In this document: one piece after another, positions 10,436-18,800 of the stretch
Layout of the letters: each line of letters starts with the position of its first letter
Position numbering within the stretch: the first letter of the stretch is position 1
From: Deltaproteobacteria bacterium
Lineage (GTDB): Bacteria; Myxococcota; Myxococcia; Myxococcales; 40CM-4-68-19
Reading direction: 5' to 3'
NCBI GenBank assembly: GCA_005879315.1
Contig: VBLC01000033.1
Location: forward strand, 62,001-126,000
Length of the DNA stretch: 64,000 bases
Program-made: the position numbers and the translations under genes
The notes under the pieces: model-generated
What the model was told of the DNA's origin: nothing
What the model saw: the letters and a program-made list of their open reading frames with translations, nothing else
The model's database searches: none

Positions 10436-10494
10436 GGCTCGCATCAGGCAAGTGACGTACTTCGCCCTTGCTCTCCCATCTATAGAACTTGGAC

Positions 10495-10830
10495 ATGCAC
10501 CCCTGGCTGGCCTCGTTGCGCCACGACCTGGTCAAGCGCGCCCTCTGGCCCGCCCGCGACCTGCGCGACAGCGGCAGCCGCGACGTGGCCGCGCTGCGCC
10601 GCGGTCTCCTCGAGCTGACCGATGCACGTGGCGCGACCATCCCGGCCGTTCAGCTCTGGCAAAGGCGTCGGGCAGGATCGCCCTGCAGCCCGGCCGCTTG
10701 CGACGCCTTCGAAGGCGCGCTGGTCCGCGCCCTCCAGGCGTTGGAGCTGCCTTGGCCGGAGCCGCTCGAGGCAGTCCTCGCCCTGGAGAGCGCTTTCGAG
10801 GCCCTGGCGCGTTCCATGGAAGGGAGATGA
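10495..10830 (+). CDS. Small protein with a histidine-kinase-like H-box motif
   Basis: A 111-residue protein, no named family recognised. Near its N-terminus it reads SLRHDLVKRALWPARDL, with H10, D11 and K14 spaced as in the phospho-acceptor box of histidine kinases; the TPR kinase downstream has a similar VRHDVLKHRAS. A helical, Leu/Ala-rich remainder is compatible with an HPt or dimerisation-only domain. It begins a four-gene unit and ends three bases before the regulator start. A TTG at 10489 is an alternative start; ATG is preferred. A phosphotransfer role is inference. Confidence 0.62.
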   Translation: MHPWLASLRHDLVKRALWPARDLRDSGSRDVAALRRGLLELTDARGATIPAVQLWQRRRAGSPCSPAACDAFEGALVRALQALELPWPEPLEAVLALESAFEALARSMEGR

Positions 10831-10833
10831 CCC

Positions 10834-12519
10834 TTGCCACGCCTGCTCGTCATCGACGATCGCGACCAGACCATCGAGATGTGCCACCGGCACCTCCCGC
10901 AGTTCGACTACGTCACACGCTGCGACCGGCCCCATCCCTGCCAGGTGTGCGACGAGCGCGACAAAGGCTGCCCGCTCAAGTGCGCTCACGACTACTTCGA
11001 GGCGGCCCAGGCGCTCGGCCGCGAGGGCGCGCTGCCCGACCTCGTCGTCCTCGATCTCCACTTCGCGCTTCCCGAAGAGAAGCTGCTTCCGAAAGAGAAG
11101 GAGGGCCTCGAGCTCGAGCAGGCGCGTCGCAAGCAAGGGCTCTACATCCTCGAGAAGCTGCGCAAGGACCATCCGAAGCTGCCGGTGGTGATGCTCACCA
11201 CGACCGATGCCGACATGGGCGAGCGGCCGCAGGACCCGCTCGTCCACTTCTGCGAGAACGAAGTGGTCGACTCGCGGACGCTGGCGGCGGAGATTTCCCG
11301 GGCGCTCACGCTGCAGCACGAGGCGCAGGAAGGGCCGGTCTTCTGGGGTCGCTCTCCCGCGATGGCCGATCTCCGCCGGCAGCTGGCGGTGCTCTCGCGC
11401 TCACCTCTGCCGGTCTTGATCGAGGGCGAGACCGGCACGGGCAAGAGCTTCTTCGCCGAGCACGTGCTCCATCCGCGCTCGGGGGCGAAAGGGCCGCTGG
11501 TGGTCACCGACCTGAGCACGGTGCCTTCGACGTTGATGCCCGCGCATCTCTTCGGCTCTCGGCGCGGCAGCTATACCGGCGCGGTCGAGGATCACGCCGG
11601 CGTGTTCGAGCAGGCCCACGGCGGCACGCTCTTTCTCGACGAAATCGCCAACCTCGATCTCGAGCTGCAGCGCCAGCTCTTGCTGGTGCTCGAGCGCGGG
11701 ACGGTCACGCGGCTGGGAGATTCGCGGCCGCGGCCGGCGGCGCCCAAGCTGGTGGCGGCGACGAATCTCGACCTCGAGCAGCTCTTGCGCGAGGGCCGCT
11801 TCCGCCCGGACCTCTACATGCGGCTCAATCCTTCCACGCGGCTGCGCATCCCGCCCTTGCGGGAGAGGCGGCAGGACTTGTCCGAGCTGGTCCGCTTCGC
11901 CGTCCTCGATGCGCTGCGCTCCGAGCAGCTGCGGCCGCTCGCGCGCGCCTACCTGGCGCGCTTTCCCACTCCCGAGGATTTCCTCGAGGAGAACTGCATT
12001 GTCGCCTTCGGCAAGCCGCAGGCGCGATCGGCGCGCCGCGATGCCTTCTCGGTCTTTCTCTCCCAGAGCGCACTGGCGCGGCTCGCTGCGCATCCCTGGC
12101 GCGGCAACCACCGCGAGCTCAAGCTGCTCGTCACCAACGCGCTGGTCTTCGCTCTCGTGCAGCAGCTGGATGCGCCGGAGCGACCGCGCAGCGAGCGCGC
12201 GCCCGCGGTGCTGGCGATCTCCGATCACCTGATCGATCAGCTGCTCGGCAAGACGCACGCGCCCGGACCCGTCCTCTGCAGCAAAGGCGCTGGCGGCGAG
12301 CGGCGCGTCGAAGTGAGCCTCAAGCCGGCGCAGAGCTTCGCGGAGATCTCCGCCGACGTGGAGCGGCAATATCTGATGGCGCTCTTCCACGCCCACGAGG
12401 GAGATCTCGACGGCATCGCCGCCGAGCTGTTCGGGCCGGGAGCGAATCGGCGCAAGGTGCACCTGCGCATGAACCAGCTCGGGCTGCGGCTGCGCGCGCT
12501 GCGGGGGGAGACGGCGTGA
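10834..12519 (+). CDS. NtrC-type sigma-54 activator with Cys-rich receiver
   Basis: A 561-residue regulator. The N-terminal receiver has the acidic pair D8-D9 and the putative phospho-acceptor D74 (LVVLDLHF), but two insertions: a Cys cluster C30/C36/C39/C46/C50, and a charged segment after D74. The usual receiver Lys is not evident. The central AAA+ domain has Walker A GETGTGKS (198-205), the sigma-54 contact loop as GSYTGA (245-250, normally GAFTGA) and Walker B FLDE (267-270), so it should activate sigma-54 promoters. A Fis-like helix-turn-helix ends the protein. The TTG start is supported by AAGGGAGA upstream. The Cys set could bind metal or an Fe-S cluster (inference). Confidence 0.88.
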   Translation: MPRLLVIDDRDQTIEMCHRHLPQFDYVTRCDRPHPCQVCDERDKGCPLKCAHDYFEAAQALGREGALPDLVVLDLHFALPEEKLLPKEKEGLELEQARRKQGLYILEKLRKDHPKLPVVMLTTTDADMGERPQDPLVHFCENEVVDSRTLAAEISRALTLQHEAQEGPVFWGRSPAMADLRRQLAVLSRSPLPVLIEGETGTGKSFFAEHVLHPRSGAKGPLVVTDLSTVPSTLMPAHLFGSRRGSYTGAVEDHAGVFEQAHGGTLFLDEIANLDLELQRQLLLVLERGTVTRLGDSRPRPAAPKLVAATNLDLEQLLREGRFRPDLYMRLNPSTRLRIPPLRERRQDLSELVRFAVLDALRSEQLRPLARAYLARFPTPEDFLEENCIVAFGKPQARSARRDAFSVFLSQSALARLAAHPWRGNHRELKLLVTNALVFALVQQLDAPERPRSERAPAVLAISDHLIDQLLGKTHAPGPVLCSKGAGGERRVEVSLKPAQSFAEISADVERQYLMALFHAHEGDLDGIAAELFGPGANRRKVHLRMNQLGLRLRALRGETA

Positions 12520-15260
12520 TCGCTCTCTTCGCCGCGCTCCTCGCCGCGGGCGCTTCAGGTCAGTCCTCTGCGCCCTCGTCGCTCGAGCGCTCCTATCGCC
12601 GGGCCATCTCGCTCAAGCCTTCGCGATGGCAGCCCTATGCGAATCTTGCCCAGCTGCTCGCCGAGGCGCCCGACCGCTGGGACCGCGCTGAGGAGATCCT
12701 TGCGCTGCTCCAGCGGGGCCTGGCCTCGGTTCCGGCCGCAGCACAGCCCGCGCTCTCGTTGCGCATCGCCGATTTCGAGCGATCGGTGGGCCGGATCGCG
12801 CAGGCCAAAGCAAGACTGGCGGCCCTGCAGGAAGCGAATCCGCGCAGCGACGTCGCGCGGCGTCTGCGCGAGCTGGCCGATGGCATCGGGGAAGAGGAGC
12901 GCGCGCGAGCGATCGAGGACTGGCCTGAGCCGCAGGTCGCCGAAGCGCCGCGCGCTGCCCTCGCCGCCGCGGAGGCGCGCCTCGAGCAGGGTGATGCGCG
13001 CGAGGCGCTGGCGGCGAGCGAGAAGCTTTGTGCGGAGCAGCCCGCGTGGCGCGGCGCCCGCTGGCTGCGCGCGCGAGCGCTGGAGGCGATGGGTCGCGTC
13101 GACGAAGAGGCGCGCGAGCTGCGCATCCTGACGCAGCTTGCGCCCTCGCATGCGGCGGCCTGGCGCAGGCTGGGAGAGATCCTCGCGCAGCAGGGCGGGC
13201 TCTTCGAAGCCGACCGCGCCGACGAGGCGCTGCGCCAGGCGCTCGCGCTCGAGCCCTCCTCGATCGAGCTGTGGCTCTTGCGCGCGCGCGTCGCCATCCG
13301 GCAGGGGCGCGCGCAGGACGCGCAGCGCGCGCTGGAGCGATTCGAGCGCGCCGGCGGCGCCAGTCCCGAGGTGGCGCGGCTGGTCGCGGTGGCGCGCGCG
13401 CAGGCCGGCCTGGCGGCGACGGCGCAGGAAGAAAGGCCGGCGCTGCAGCCGCGCGAGCCCTCGCAACAGGCGCGCGCTCTCTTCCAGCAGGCGGCGAGCG
13501 CACCTCCCGAAATCGCGCGCCAGCTGCTGCAGGAGGCCGTCGACGACTCGCCTGGCTTCGTCGAGGCGGCCGGGGCGCTCTTTGCGCTCGGCGCCGATGT
13601 CCCGGAGAAGACGGTGCAGGCGCTCGACCAGGACGGCCCTGGACTGCTGGAGCTGGCTGCGCGATTGCGCCGGGCGGGGAGCGGAGCGGCGCTGGTTGCG
13701 CCGTTCCTCGATCGCGCTGTGCAGCTGGGCGCGCCCGAAGCGCTCCATGCGCGCGCGGCACTGCGGCTCGAACAGGGCGACCGCGCCGGCGCGCTCGAGG
13801 ATCTGCTCGCCTACGCGGCCTCGCCGCGGCCGGACCATCTGGAGGAGGCGCGCGCGCTGCGAGCGCAGCTCGTGCCGCCGGCGCGCGACGACGTCTCGGC
13901 GCTGCAGGCGCGGTTGCGGCTCGTGGAGGATCGGCCGGAGGCGGCGCTCGCCGTGCTCGGGGGCCGCTGTACGCCGGGGTCTCCTTCCTCGCGGCTGCTC
14001 GCCCTTGGAGAAGTGCGCGAGTTCTCCGGACAGCTGCGCGAGGCGCTCGAGTGCTACCAGCTGGCCGGCGACGTTGGCCTCCCCCGGCTCGCCCGCGTGG
14101 CGGCGCGCTCTCCGGATGCGCGGGCCGTTCCCGAGTTGCAGCGCGCCGCCGGCCGCGGCGTGCCGGCCGCGCTCTGGGCGCTGGCGCGGATCGATCTCGA
14201 TCAGCGAAAGCCGGACCAGGCGCTGCCGCTCGTCGAACGCTTTCTCGCCACGGCCGGCCCTGACGATCCCGGCCGGGCCGACGCGCGCGCCGCGCGAGAG
14301 CAAATCTTGAAGACCACGACCGCGGCAACCGAGGCGCGGCTGCGAAAGAGGGTCGCGGCCGCTCTCGGCGCAGCGGCGCTGCTCGCCGCGCTCGCCTCTT
14401 CCTTCTGGGGCGGCGCGACGATCGAGCGCGCTCTGCGCCGCGCGCCGCGCCTCTTTCCCACTGCCGCGCGCGCCGCGGCAGAGGTGCGCCACGATGTCCT
14501 CAAGCACAGGGCCAGCGCCCTGGGCATGCTCCCGAGCTGCCGCGCGGATGTAGCTCGTGCCCTGCTTTCGCCCGAGCCGGCCTCGCAGGCAGTGGCGCGC
14601 AGGTACCAGGAGCTGCGCAAGACAGCCCGGGCGCAAGGCGTCTCGCTGCGGCGGCTGTCGCGAGAGCCGGTGTTCGGACCGCTGGTGCGCGATCTCGCCC
14701 GAGCCGAAGATTTGTTGCGCGAGCCTTCGGGCAGCGAGGCCGAGCTGGCGCGCCTCGACGAGCGCCTCCGCCAGCTGCACGCGGCGCGGCTCTCGTCGCT
14801 GCTCCGGCTGGGGCCGCGCACGCGGCTGGACGCGGGCGCGATCGCCGGATGGATCCGCGACGTCGAGGCGGAGATGCGACGCGGCGGGTCCTCCTGGACG
14901 GCGCCGTCCATCCTGCTGCAGGGCATGGAGGTGGAATTCCCGGTCGAGCGCGGCGCGCTGTCGACCATCTTCGCCAACCTCCTGCGCAATGCCCAGGCGG
15001 CGGCCCAGGGCGGCAAGGTCATCGTCAGGCTGGGCGAGGAGCGCGACGCCGCGGGGCGTGACCTGACGGTCCTGCTCGTGGGCGACTCCGCGCCGGGCGG
15101 CATCTCGCTGGAGAGCATCGAGCGGCGCGAGACCGGCCGCGGCCTCGCGCTGGTCCGCGACCTCACCCGCGAGTGGCAGGGGCATCTGGTGGTCCGCTCG
15201 GAGGAGCCGCCCTGGAAGAAGGCCGTCGGCGCCTGCTTCCCCGCGCCGCCCGCGACATGA
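12516..15260 (+). CDS. TPR-repeat sensor histidine kinase
   Basis: A 914-residue protein with GTG start overlapping the regulator stop (GTGA). A signal-like helix (IALFAALLAAGASG) is followed by about 590 residues of TPR-like helical repeats, then a membrane helix at about 613-633. After it come a candidate H-box (VRHDVLKHRAS, H659) and a HATPase domain with N-box FANLLRNAQAA (819-829), a DSAPGG G1 box near 857 and GRGLALV. This predicts extracytoplasmic TPRs that sense a ligand and a cytoplasmic kinase for the adjacent regulator. The kinase domain is diverged, so activity is likely but not certain. Confidence 0.82.
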   Translation: MIALFAALLAAGASGQSSAPSSLERSYRRAISLKPSRWQPYANLAQLLAEAPDRWDRAEEILALLQRGLASVPAAAQPALSLRIADFERSVGRIAQAKARLAALQEANPRSDVARRLRELADGIGEEERARAIEDWPEPQVAEAPRAALAAAEARLEQGDAREALAASEKLCAEQPAWRGARWLRARALEAMGRVDEEARELRILTQLAPSHAAAWRRLGEILAQQGGLFEADRADEALRQALALEPSSIELWLLRARVAIRQGRAQDAQRALERFERAGGASPEVARLVAVARAQAGLAATAQEERPALQPREPSQQARALFQQAASAPPEIARQLLQEAVDDSPGFVEAAGALFALGADVPEKTVQALDQDGPGLLELAARLRRAGSGAALVAPFLDRAVQLGAPEALHARAALRLEQGDRAGALEDLLAYAASPRPDHLEEARALRAQLVPPARDDVSALQARLRLVEDRPEAALAVLGGRCTPGSPSSRLLALGEVREFSGQLREALECYQLAGDVGLPRLARVAARSPDARAVPELQRAAGRGVPAALWALARIDLDQRKPDQALPLVERFLATAGPDDPGRADARAAREQILKTTTAATEARLRKRVAAALGAAALLAALASSFWGGATIERALRRAPRLFPTAARAAAEVRHDVLKHRASALGMLPSCRADVARALLSPEPASQAVARRYQELRKTARAQGVSLRRLSREPVFGPLVRDLARAEDLLREPSGSEAELARLDERLRQLHAARLSSLLRLGPRTRLDAGAIAGWIRDVEAEMRRGGSSWTAPSILLQGMEVEFPVERGALSTIFANLLRNAQAAAQGGKVIVRLGEERDAAGRDLTVLLVGDSAPGGISLESIERRETGRGLALVRDLTREWQGHLVVRSEEPPWKKAVGACFPAPPAT

Positions 15261-15658
15261 ACTTTCTCGTCTGCGAGGACGGCAGCGAGTACACCGAGCG
15301 GTTCCAGCGCTTCCTCGGCGGAGAGTTTCATTTCGCCCGCGCCGGCCATTTCGCCGAGGCGCTCGCGCTTGCACCGCAGGCCGGCGCGCTCTTGCTCGAC
15401 CTCGATTTCCACCGCACGCCGCGCGCGCTTCTCGTCGATGAGAGCGGCGCGCCCGCTGCTGGATGCGCAGAGGTGCAAGGCATCCTTCTCTTGCGGGCGC
15501 TCCGCTCGCGCGGCGTGAGACTGCCGGCGCTGCTCTTCGCCGATCTCGACGATCCGCTGCGCGCGGCGCAGCTGGAAAAAGAGCTGGCGCCCCTGCAGAT
15601 CGTTTCGTCGGCGGAAGGATTGCCGCAGATCGCGGTCCTCTTGAGGAGGGTCGTCTGA
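15257..15658 (+). CDS. Stand-alone divergent receiver protein
   Basis: A 133-residue protein whose ATG overlaps the kinase stop (ATGA). It starts MNFLVCEDGSEYTERFQRFL, with acidic residues E7-D8 after the first strand, and has LLLDLDF with D48 at the phospho-acceptor position. As in the regulator at 10834, an insertion follows this strand before QGILLLRALRSRG. The two receivers therefore share an unusual layout and are probably paralogues. It has no output domain, so it may be a phosphate sink, a relay step or an adaptor (inference). Confidence 0.75.
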   Translation: MNFLVCEDGSEYTERFQRFLGGEFHFARAGHFAEALALAPQAGALLLDLDFHRTPRALLVDESGAPAAGCAEVQGILLLRALRSRGVRLPALLFADLDDPLRAAQLEKELAPLQIVSSAEGLPQIAVLLRRVV

Positions 15659-15688
15659 GGCTCTGGCGCTAGCCGCAATGCTGAGAGC

Positions 15689-15859
15689 CGTGGTCGTGCT
15701 CGTGCTGGTCTTCGTGCTCGATGTCGAGCTTGTGCTGGTGCTCCTTTTCGTGCCGGATGTCGAGCTCGTGCTCGTTCTGATTTGGGTGCCGTGAACAAGC
15801 CCCGGGCACCCGAACGGGGACGACGCCGAGCACCAAAACGGGCAGGAGCACGAGCACGG
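15689..15859. repeat. GTGCTCG-rich imperfect inverted repeat between convergent genes
   Basis: The 219 bases between the receiver gene and treY hold no gene. Most are a low-complexity element of GTGCTCGTGCTGG-like units on the left arm (about 15689-15790) and the complementary pattern on the right arm (about 15805-15859). The centre has a perfect 7-bp stem, GGGTGCC at 15784-15790 and GGCACCC at 15805-15811, with a 14-base loop. The reverse complement of 15842-15859 is identical to 27794-27811. It may form a large hairpin acting as a bidirectional terminator or be a dispersed repeat. Confidence 0.7.
15784..15811. terminator. Possible stem-loop at convergent gene ends
   Basis: A 7-bp perfect stem with a 14-base loop lies at the centre of the inverted repeat between the end of the receiver gene and the end of treY. 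There is no adjacent T-run, so it is not a classic intrinsic terminator. Its place between two convergent stop codons is the main reason for suggesting termination. Confidence 0.35.
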
Positions 15860-15877
15860 AAGGACAATGGACGCTGA

Positions 15878-18800
15878 CTAGCCGCGCACCAGCAGGGCGA
15901 CGGGCAGCGTGGAGAAGAGCTCCTCGGCGGCCAGCCCCGCATCGCGCACCTCGCGCTCTTCGCCTGTGAGCACATCGCGCAGCTTCTCGCCCGGCTGCAA
16001 GCCAGGCACGGCGACGGTGGTGCCGGCGAACTTCTCCGGGAGAAACCGTGCGCCATCGAGGAGGCCGCTCACCAGTCGCGGCGCCACCGCGACTGCGACG
16101 TTGTTTTCCGAGGTGCGCGCGAAAGCGCACAGATTCGCGGCCCTCGACCCTTGCGCTTGCAGCGCGACGTATCCGCGGCCCGCGAAGAGCTCCGGATTCT
16201 TCTGCCGCGCGAGCAGCCCTGCCTGGGTGAGGAAGAGCTTGATGCGCCCGTCCTCCCACGAGCCGTACAGCTCCCGCGCCAGCTCGGCCCTGCTCAGCGT
16301 CGAGGCGCGCAGCTCGTCGAGCAGCTTCCTGCGCAGCGCGAAATCCACCGGCCGGCGATTGTCGGGATCGACCAGCGAGAAGTCCCACAGCTCGGTCCCC
16401 TGGAAGAAGTCGGGCACGCCCGGCGCGGCCATCTTGAGCACCAGCTGGGAGAGCGAATTGTGCATGCCGATCTCGGCGATGCGGCGGGCGAAGGGCAAGA
16501 GACCCTTCCAGAGCGGATGCCGGGGCGGCAGCGCGAACAGGCCGTCGATGAAATCGCGCAGCGCCTCCTCCCAGCGCGCATCCTGTTGGATCCAGCTTGT
16601 GTTGGTCTTCGCTTCCTTGGCGGCCTTGAACAGGTACGGCCGGATGCGGCCGCGCAGCGCCTCGAGATCCGCGGCCGGCGGCATGCCGGTGCCGTTGGGC
16701 CAGACGCCGATCAGCGTCTGCAAGAGGAGCATCTGCTCGTTCCGGTCGGGCGCGCGCCGGCCGTCGACCTCCCGGCGCAGCTTCTCGGTGCGGCGGGCGA
16801 AGGCGATGGCGGTCTTGCGCCAGTCGTCGGGCAGTTCCGAGAGCGCGTCGATGCGCGCGCGGATGTCCTCGCCGCGCTTGGTGTCGTGCGTAGCGGTGGC
16901 GAGCAGCGAGCGCGGCCAGCGCTCGGCGCGCAGCGCGTTGTGCTCGTGGAAGGCCTCGACGGTGTTGCCGAAGTGCTGCGGCTCGCCGCCGACCTCGTTC
17001 AAGGAGACGAGCCGGTTGTAGACGTAGAAGGCGGTGTCCTCCAGGCCTTTCGCCTGCACCGGCGCGAGTATCTGCTGCAGCTTGAGAGAGAAGGCGTGCT
17101 GCGCCGGCCGCTCGCTCTCCTCCACGTACGCCGCGAACTTCTGCAAGAGGATGTCTGCGATGAAGTCGTAGATCGATTCGTTCTCGACGGGATTGCGCCG
17201 CCTGGCGCAGGCCACCGCCTGGAGGATGTACCGGCGATCGCGCTCCTCGACCTCGTCCGGGCCGCTGATATAGGTGCGGTAGACGGGAAAGCACGCCACC
17301 ACTTCGATGAGCGCGGCGCGCAGCGAGTAGAGGGTGAAGTCGCGCGTCCACCGGTTGCCCTCGGAGATGCGGTTGAGCTGGCGGGCGAGCAGGTTCATCT
17401 CGCTCGCCATCGCCGTGTAGAGGATCAATTTCTTCTTCTGGTAGACCAGCTCCTCGAAGTCGATCTCGGCGCCGATGAAGCGCGAGTAGATGCGCTGCAG
17501 CTTCTGCTCGTTCTCGCGGGCGACGAAGATGCCGTTGAGCGAATTGAGGAAGTCGTAGCCGGTCGTCCCCGCCACCGGCCAGCTCGGCGGGAGCGTCTCC
17601 GTGCGGCCGAGGATCTTTTCCGCAGCGACGAAGAGCGGCCGCCAGAGCGGCGAGGAGGCGCCCTTCTCTTCCAGCTCGCTCTGCAGTTGCTCGCGCAGGG
17701 CCGGCTCCAGCTGCTCCCAGCGCAATCCCCGCTGCGCGGCGCGGCGCTGGGCGCGCTCGAGGATGCGCGCGTCTTGCAGGAGGCGGAAATAGCGCCCCGG
17801 ATAAGCCAGTCCATCGGGATGATCGATGCGCAGGCCGGAGATCTTTCCCTCCGCGAGAAGTTGCAGAGGCAGGCGATGCGCTTGCCCGAAAACCTCGGCG
17901 TCCTCCATGCGGATGGCGGCGAGGGAATTGATGTCGAAGAACCTCCGGTAATTGATCTCCTCGCTGGAGACGCGCCAGTGCGCCAGCCGATAAGCCTGCG
18001 CGTCGAGCAATTTGTCGAGCAGGTCGAAGCTGCGCGGCTTGCCGGCCGTGCCGTTGAAGAGGCGGACGTTCTCCTCCAGGTGGCGGCGCACCGCCTCGCT
18101 CAAGGCGCAGAGCGTCGCCACCCGCCGCTTGACGACTTCCTTCTCGCGCCGCCGCTCCTCCTGCCGGGCCGGATCCTGTTCGTGCCGCGAGGGCAGGTGG
18201 GAAAGCTCGAAGAGGATGCTCTTCAGCTCATCGAGCGTCTCGCCCGGACCGAGCTGCTTCTCCAGCTCCTCCAGCCGGTAGGCGAGGATATGCCCATAGG
18301 AACGGGGATTGATGGGGAACAGGTGATCGAAATAGCGAAGGCGGAAGGCGCCGTGGACGAGCTCCAGGCGCAGCTCGCCGCGCTCGAGCACCGCGCCGTA
18401 GCGATCGCCCAGGACCGGCACGAGCACCTTGTCGGCCAGCTCCTCCTTGAGCGGATGCCATTCGACGTCGAAGTATCGGGCGGCGCGCGAGCTGGGGCCG
18501 TTCTCGAGCACGTCCAGCCAGAGCCTGTTGCCGCTCCCCAAGCCCATGTGGTTGGGGACGATGTCGAGCACGTATCCGAGGCCAGCCTTCTGCACCGCGC
18601 CGGCGAGCTGGACGAATCCCTCCTCGCCTCCCAGCTCGGAGTTGATCTTGCCGTGGTCGATGACGTCGTAGCCGTGCATCGAACCGGGCGCAGCCTGCAG
18701 CACCGGGCTCGAGTACAGGTCGGTGATCCCGAGCTCGGCGAGATAGGGCATCACCGCCTGCGCGTCTGCAAAGGGGAATCCCTTGTGCAGCTGCAGGCGG

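Follow-up and report, generated by a model that had tools for sequence, protein, structure and literature searches.

The question raised by this locus is whether four adjacent genes, named A to D here, are the parts of a single signalling pathway, and what a cysteine-rich insert may contribute to the receiver of one of them. The locus lies in a stretch of 64,000 nucleotides of DNA from a member of the Myxococcota (hereafter the window), and its features are collected in Table 1. All four genes are on one strand, with a gap of 3 bases between A and B and overlaps of 4 bases both between B and C and between C and D. The positions of the reading frames agree with the first-pass annotation, which had described four consecutive genes with 3-base spacing or overlaps. 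A-B-C-D is a single tight operon (10495-15658). The region between D and treY (15659-15880) carries degenerate tandem repeats of 6, 24 and 36 bases which together form a long imperfect inverted repeat; its predicted folding as RNA gave -109.7 kcal/mol, with a z of -4.2 versus shuffles.

Table 1. Features of the four-gene operon, in positions of the window.
Feature	Position	Strand	Description
Gene A	10495-10830	+	111-aa helical protein; predicted histidine phosphocarrier with invariant H10, D11 and K14
Gene B	10834-12519	+	receiver, AAA+ sigma-54 activator and HTH; TTG start
Gene C	12516-15260	+	signal-like N-terminus, TPR region, TM helix 613-631, H-box His659, HATPase; GTG start
Gene D	15257-15658	+	stand-alone receiver of the subfamily of B's receiver; phospho-acceptor D48
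Cys-rich insert in B's receiver	10921-10989	+	C30 to H52, loop between strand 2 and helix 2
Promoter-like element upstream of A	10472-10494	+	TCTATAGA at 10479-10486

Profiles of A and of B's receiver were searched in 195 Myxococcota genomes, with limited candidates scored per genome. One alignment (A7), which may include a misframed row, was set aside. The order A-B-C-D is kept in 12 loci, the window included. It occurs together with the Cys insert in the window, L042, L043, L044, L034, L046, L048, L051 and L112, and without the insert in L052, L054 and L113, where B is only about 40% identical. In several further loci the end of the contig falls inside the cluster, and at L055 the genes that come after A and B are unrelated. 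The first-pass annotation had made its proposal depend on the four genes staying together in relatives among the Myxococcota; they do so, and in the same order, at these 12 loci. Since the order is kept even where B is about 40% identical, the four genes are an old module. It is also a rare one, because strong matches to the two profiles, among the candidates scored in the 195 genomes, were confined to family f1 and a single genome from each of two further families, f13 and f14. All 11 other f1 genomes carry the activator B itself, three of them without a receiver, and distant relatives of 38-41% identity are present in other Myxococcota. Gene A was searched on plasmids and none was found there. 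At L042 (788-1111), gene A of genome G002 is interrupted by a single in-frame TAG, whereas the frames of B and D run through the match uninterrupted; this stop reflects either decay or a metagenome assembly error.

The three genomes with a receiver-less B (G004, G005 and G006; loci L040, L041 and L011) give further information on how the genes belong together. The orthologous activator begins there slightly ahead of the AAA+ domain, and its N-terminus (MTSVLAIQDSTAEL in G005, for example) resembles what would be left of the receiver's first strand. In G004 and G005 the activator is flanked by mutS2 and treY, just as B's operon is in the window, and on the G006 contig only treY was seen beside it. 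A, C and D were not found in any of these three genomes, of which G005 is rated 100% complete. In a tree of the AAA+ part, the three activators form one clade with support of 100/100, nested in a 97/98 set that also includes the window and four more sequences of the Cys type. As the receiver-less activators are one nested clade, the receiver, C, D and A were lost together, most simply once. This co-loss, although a single event, is the strongest argument that A, C and D serve B. Two-component genes are frequent in these genomes, so that four of them with separate roles could have become neighbours by chance. That explanation is extremely improbable, however, as the order persists down to about 40% identity in differing genomic surroundings, the reading frames overlap translationally, and A, C and D disappeared jointly with B's receiver domain; it is already contradicted by the conserved order and the co-loss.

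The roles of B and C could be assigned from known domains. B matched the Pfam family Sigma54_activat with an E-value of 2.7e-50, its Walker motifs are kept, and the loop reads GSYTGA or GAYTGA in the alignment. With an AAA+ sigma-54 interaction domain and a GAFTGA-type loop, B is by its sequence an activator of the NtrC type, and rpoN is present in the window's genome. In C, Pfam detected TPRs and a weak HATPase. A single TM helix (613-631) precedes the H-box at His659, and this places the TPR region most likely outside the inner membrane. The N-terminus of C has a hydrophobic, signal-like stretch that is clearer in the orthologues, consistent with the earlier description of C as a TPR histidine kinase with a signal peptide.

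The receivers are much less typical. Pfam gave mere traces of a receiver in B and no match at all for A and D, and comparison of D with solved receivers yielded E-values of 0.1 or worse. Nevertheless, B's receiver and D align with each other (hhalign probability 98.8, E 1.3e-16) and have the pattern LDxxF ... P ... L ... QGxxxLxxLR in common; judged by this comparison, they are one divergent receiver subfamily. The shared insertion after the phospho-acceptor strand, to which the first-pass annotation had drawn attention, is long and present in both, and may form a docking surface for histidine partners. A model of B's receiver showed a receiver fold with NtrX as the best solved match. D8, D9, D74 and T122 are invariant in B's receiver and the beta5 Lys is missing. 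In D the acidic residues and the phospho-Asp are invariant. Retention of the acidic pair and the phospho-Asp in both would be expected of receivers that share their histidine docking partners. Phosphorylation of D is not assured, because both the beta4 Thr/Ser and the beta5 Lys are missing.

Protein A has no match in Pfam or NCBIfam. In an alignment of 17 sequences, reaching down to 22% identity, H10, D11, K14, A51, A75 and L104 are kept. AF2 modelled A as five helices with high scores (pLDDT 96, pTM 0.87), with H10 located on the long first helix. No solved PDB structure matched it by profile or by fold, and comparison with the HPt, Spo0B and ChpT carriers revealed neither sequence-profile nor fold homology to HPt or DHp. 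The motif [RQ]HD-x-x-K of A recalls the RH[DE]VLK of C's H-box. Homology between the two was considered and rejected: the register was right, but the profile comparison gave a probability of 4, which is not significant. The conservation of these residues and the genomic company of A suggest that it carries phosphate on a histidine.

The five cysteines of B's receiver (C30, C36, C39, C46 and C50) fall within 21 residues, as the first-pass annotation had pointed out. At most four were counted in such a span in the other called genes of the window, and a five-Cys cluster would arise by chance with a probability of about 0.001 in a protein of B's length with 1% Cys. The annotation had also staked its proposal on conservation of this cluster among orthologues, and for four of the five residues that expectation was borne out. 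C30, C36, C39 and C46, together with H52 and C140, are invariant in 12/12 insert-bearing receivers and absent in 6/6 receivers without the insert. C50 did not follow, being replaced by Gly in L046 and by Ser in L039. Mean pairwise identity is 79% in the insert versus 72% in the rest of the receiver. C140 lies in the model on beta5, in the region that normally provides the Lys. Outside f1, the insert was also detected in G071. Acquisition of the insert by B's receiver in this lineage is a simpler account than its loss in the others. The first-pass annotation had inferred a metal- or redox-gated activator; as the cluster is absent from the distant four-gene members, such gating, though possible, would be a lineage-specific addition and not the core function.

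Whether this loop senses anything was then weighed against a purely structural role. Structural zinc sites also use a CX2C core with further cysteines and a conserved histidine, and the insert fits this description. The insert gave no significant sequence match to a zinc finger or a known Fe-S fold, the sole look-alikes being non-significant hits to zinc-finger fragments, and a distribution confined to one lineage suits a structural add-on. A loop held by structural zinc or by disulfides, which would stabilise the receiver or its contact with a partner and have no sensing role, is thus a possible explanation, if a rather doubtful one. On the other side, the spacing C30-x5-C-x2-C-x6-C in the beta2-alpha2 loop extends over 16 residues, as in EndoIII, whose [4Fe-4S] loop has C199, C206, C209 and C215 (PMC9268735), and C140 near the phosphorylation site was gained along with the cluster; neither point is decisive. 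A receiver with a four-Cys motif, FixT, has been shown to bind an Fe-S cluster (PMC7078487). The first-pass annotation had recommended modelling of the receiver in search of a metal site, and the model, with a pLDDT near 50 in the Cys loop, is not confident for the geometry of such a site. From the pattern of conservation, the insert probably binds a metal or an Fe-S cluster, and H52 and C140 may serve as additional ligands; that it has a true sensing role is conceivable, at slightly less than an even chance.

A kinase, a lone receiver, a histidine carrier (assuming this role for A) and a receiver-output protein are all present, linked and co-lost. We infer from this a pathway in which the exported TPR domain of C would sense the state of the envelope or a partner protein, upon which C would autophosphorylate at His659. 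The phosphoryl group would pass to Asp48 of D, from D to His10 of A and from A to Asp74 of B, and the AAA+ domain of B would then drive sigma-54 promoters. The Cys4 loop would hold a metal or an Fe-S cluster and provide a second, cytoplasmic input. Such a pathway is favoured by the order kept in 12 loci and the joint loss of A, C, D and the receiver, by the retention of H10, D11 and K14 in A and the similar motif in the kinase H-box, and by the intact Walker motifs and GSYTGA loop of B in a genome with rpoN; it is weakened by the lack of any detectable resemblance of A, in sequence or in fold, to a known phosphotransferase. A self-contained four-protein phosphorelay controlling the sigma-54 activator, with the Cys loop as a second input in this lineage, is the most likely reading and is given an even chance. 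The stronger version, in which A represents a new histidine phosphotransfer class with its own fold and B's receiver is gated by Fe-S or metal, so that envelope and cytoplasmic signals meet there, is unlikely.

Part of the same evidence would fit an alternative arrangement. C would phosphorylate B directly as in NtrB/NtrC, D would act as a sink for phosphate or, like FixT, as an inhibitor of the kinase, and A, instead of carrying phosphate, would serve for docking or as an anti-activator. The missing beta4 Thr/Ser and beta5 Lys of D and the missing phosphotransferase fold match of A speak for it, and there are precedents: the lone receiver FixT inhibits its kinase (PMC7078487), and for NmpT, in an NtrC pathway of a myxobacterium, the role of a phosphate sink has been proposed (PMC11841059). 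Against it, the H10 of A is invariant although an adaptor would not need a histidine; the phospho-Asp of D is invariant as well, a residue that a sink needs. Direct transfer from C to B is possible but considered doubtful.

The closest parallels for the proposed phosphorelay are the four-protein Pak-SdrG-PhyT-PhyR pathway of Sphingomonas melonis (PMC5898713) and the Spo0 pathway of Bacillus (KinA-Spo0F-Spo0B-Spo0A), which are likewise built of a separate kinase, a lone receiver, a histidine carrier and a receiver-output protein. They differ from the present module, whose output is an NtrC-type activator, whose four genes are in one operon, whose protein A (111 aa) is unlike either PhyT or Spo0B and whose kinase has a TPR region predicted to be exported. 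NmpRSTU of Myxococcus xanthus (PMC11841059) is also multi-component, ends on an NtrC-like regulator and includes an extra receiver protein. It consists, however, of a soluble protoglobin kinase, a hybrid kinase with an N-terminal receiver and a double-receiver protein, and has neither a small histidine protein nor a TPR kinase. Identity with NmpRSTU was rejected, C being a TPR-TM kinase without receiver and D a single receiver. Caulobacter FixT (PMC7078487) resembles B in having a receiver domain with a four-Cys motif (C53, C56, C59 and C64), but it is a lone receiver, whereas the cysteines described here have another spacing and belong to an insert that precedes helix 2 in the receiver of an activator. 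ChpT (PMC3433190) is, like the predicted A, a non-kinase carrier with its active histidine on an N-terminal helix; it is a helical-hairpin dimer with an ATPase-like domain, in contrast to the five-helix A. The four-protein module is apparently undescribed in the open-access literature searched.

Candidate targets of B were sought around the operon. A TATAGAAT-like element, present as the perfect palindrome ATTCTATAGAAT in several relatives, is located just 5' of the ATG of A and is conserved in the Cys-type loci. It is so near the ATG that the mRNA of A would be nearly leaderless. TTCTATAGAA occurs as a single copy per genome, at this site only, in G002, G003, G007 and G008; nine other genomes lack it, and the reversed control gave 4 sites across all 13. 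This suggests regulation by a dedicated protein, for which B would be the natural candidate. A small gene for a DUF2914 protein is divergent from A in L046 (6169-6569), L048 (2173-2639), L050 (around 3531) and L047 (around 2530), with a well-placed sigma-54-like site, CGGCAYGGSGSCTGCA, ahead of it in all four. It is a candidate target of B, as a lead only, L046, L047 and L050 being close kin. A divergent pair of genes adjoins A in six loci (L033 10654-13376, L046 3405-6135, L051 3508-6461, and also L047, L050 and L039) and codes for a membrane protein of the SPFH (Band_7) type and an exported SH3-like protein. This pair was dismissed as a general target, SPFH being absent from the whole genus of the window. 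A scan of the window's genome for YGGCACGNNNNNTGCW returned 26 sites versus 20 in the reversed control, with no clear enrichment. Elsewhere in this genome (L086 1501-2020; G000 contig C42), the 16-mer CGGCACGGCGGCTGCA precedes three genes, whose products are a small coiled-coil protein, a very small membrane protein and a protein resembling a transporter.

Taken as a whole, the four-protein signalling module is real, coherent and rare, with one component of no known family and a lineage-specific Cys site. If the proposed reading is right, the Myxococcota possess a compact phosphorelay encoded in one operon, and A would be a small putative carrier protein absent from the family libraries used. 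The receivers with and without the insert would then offer a natural comparison of how a receiver gains a metal or redox input, and the three genomes that have the activator but no relay can serve as a natural experiment to learn what the receiver controls.
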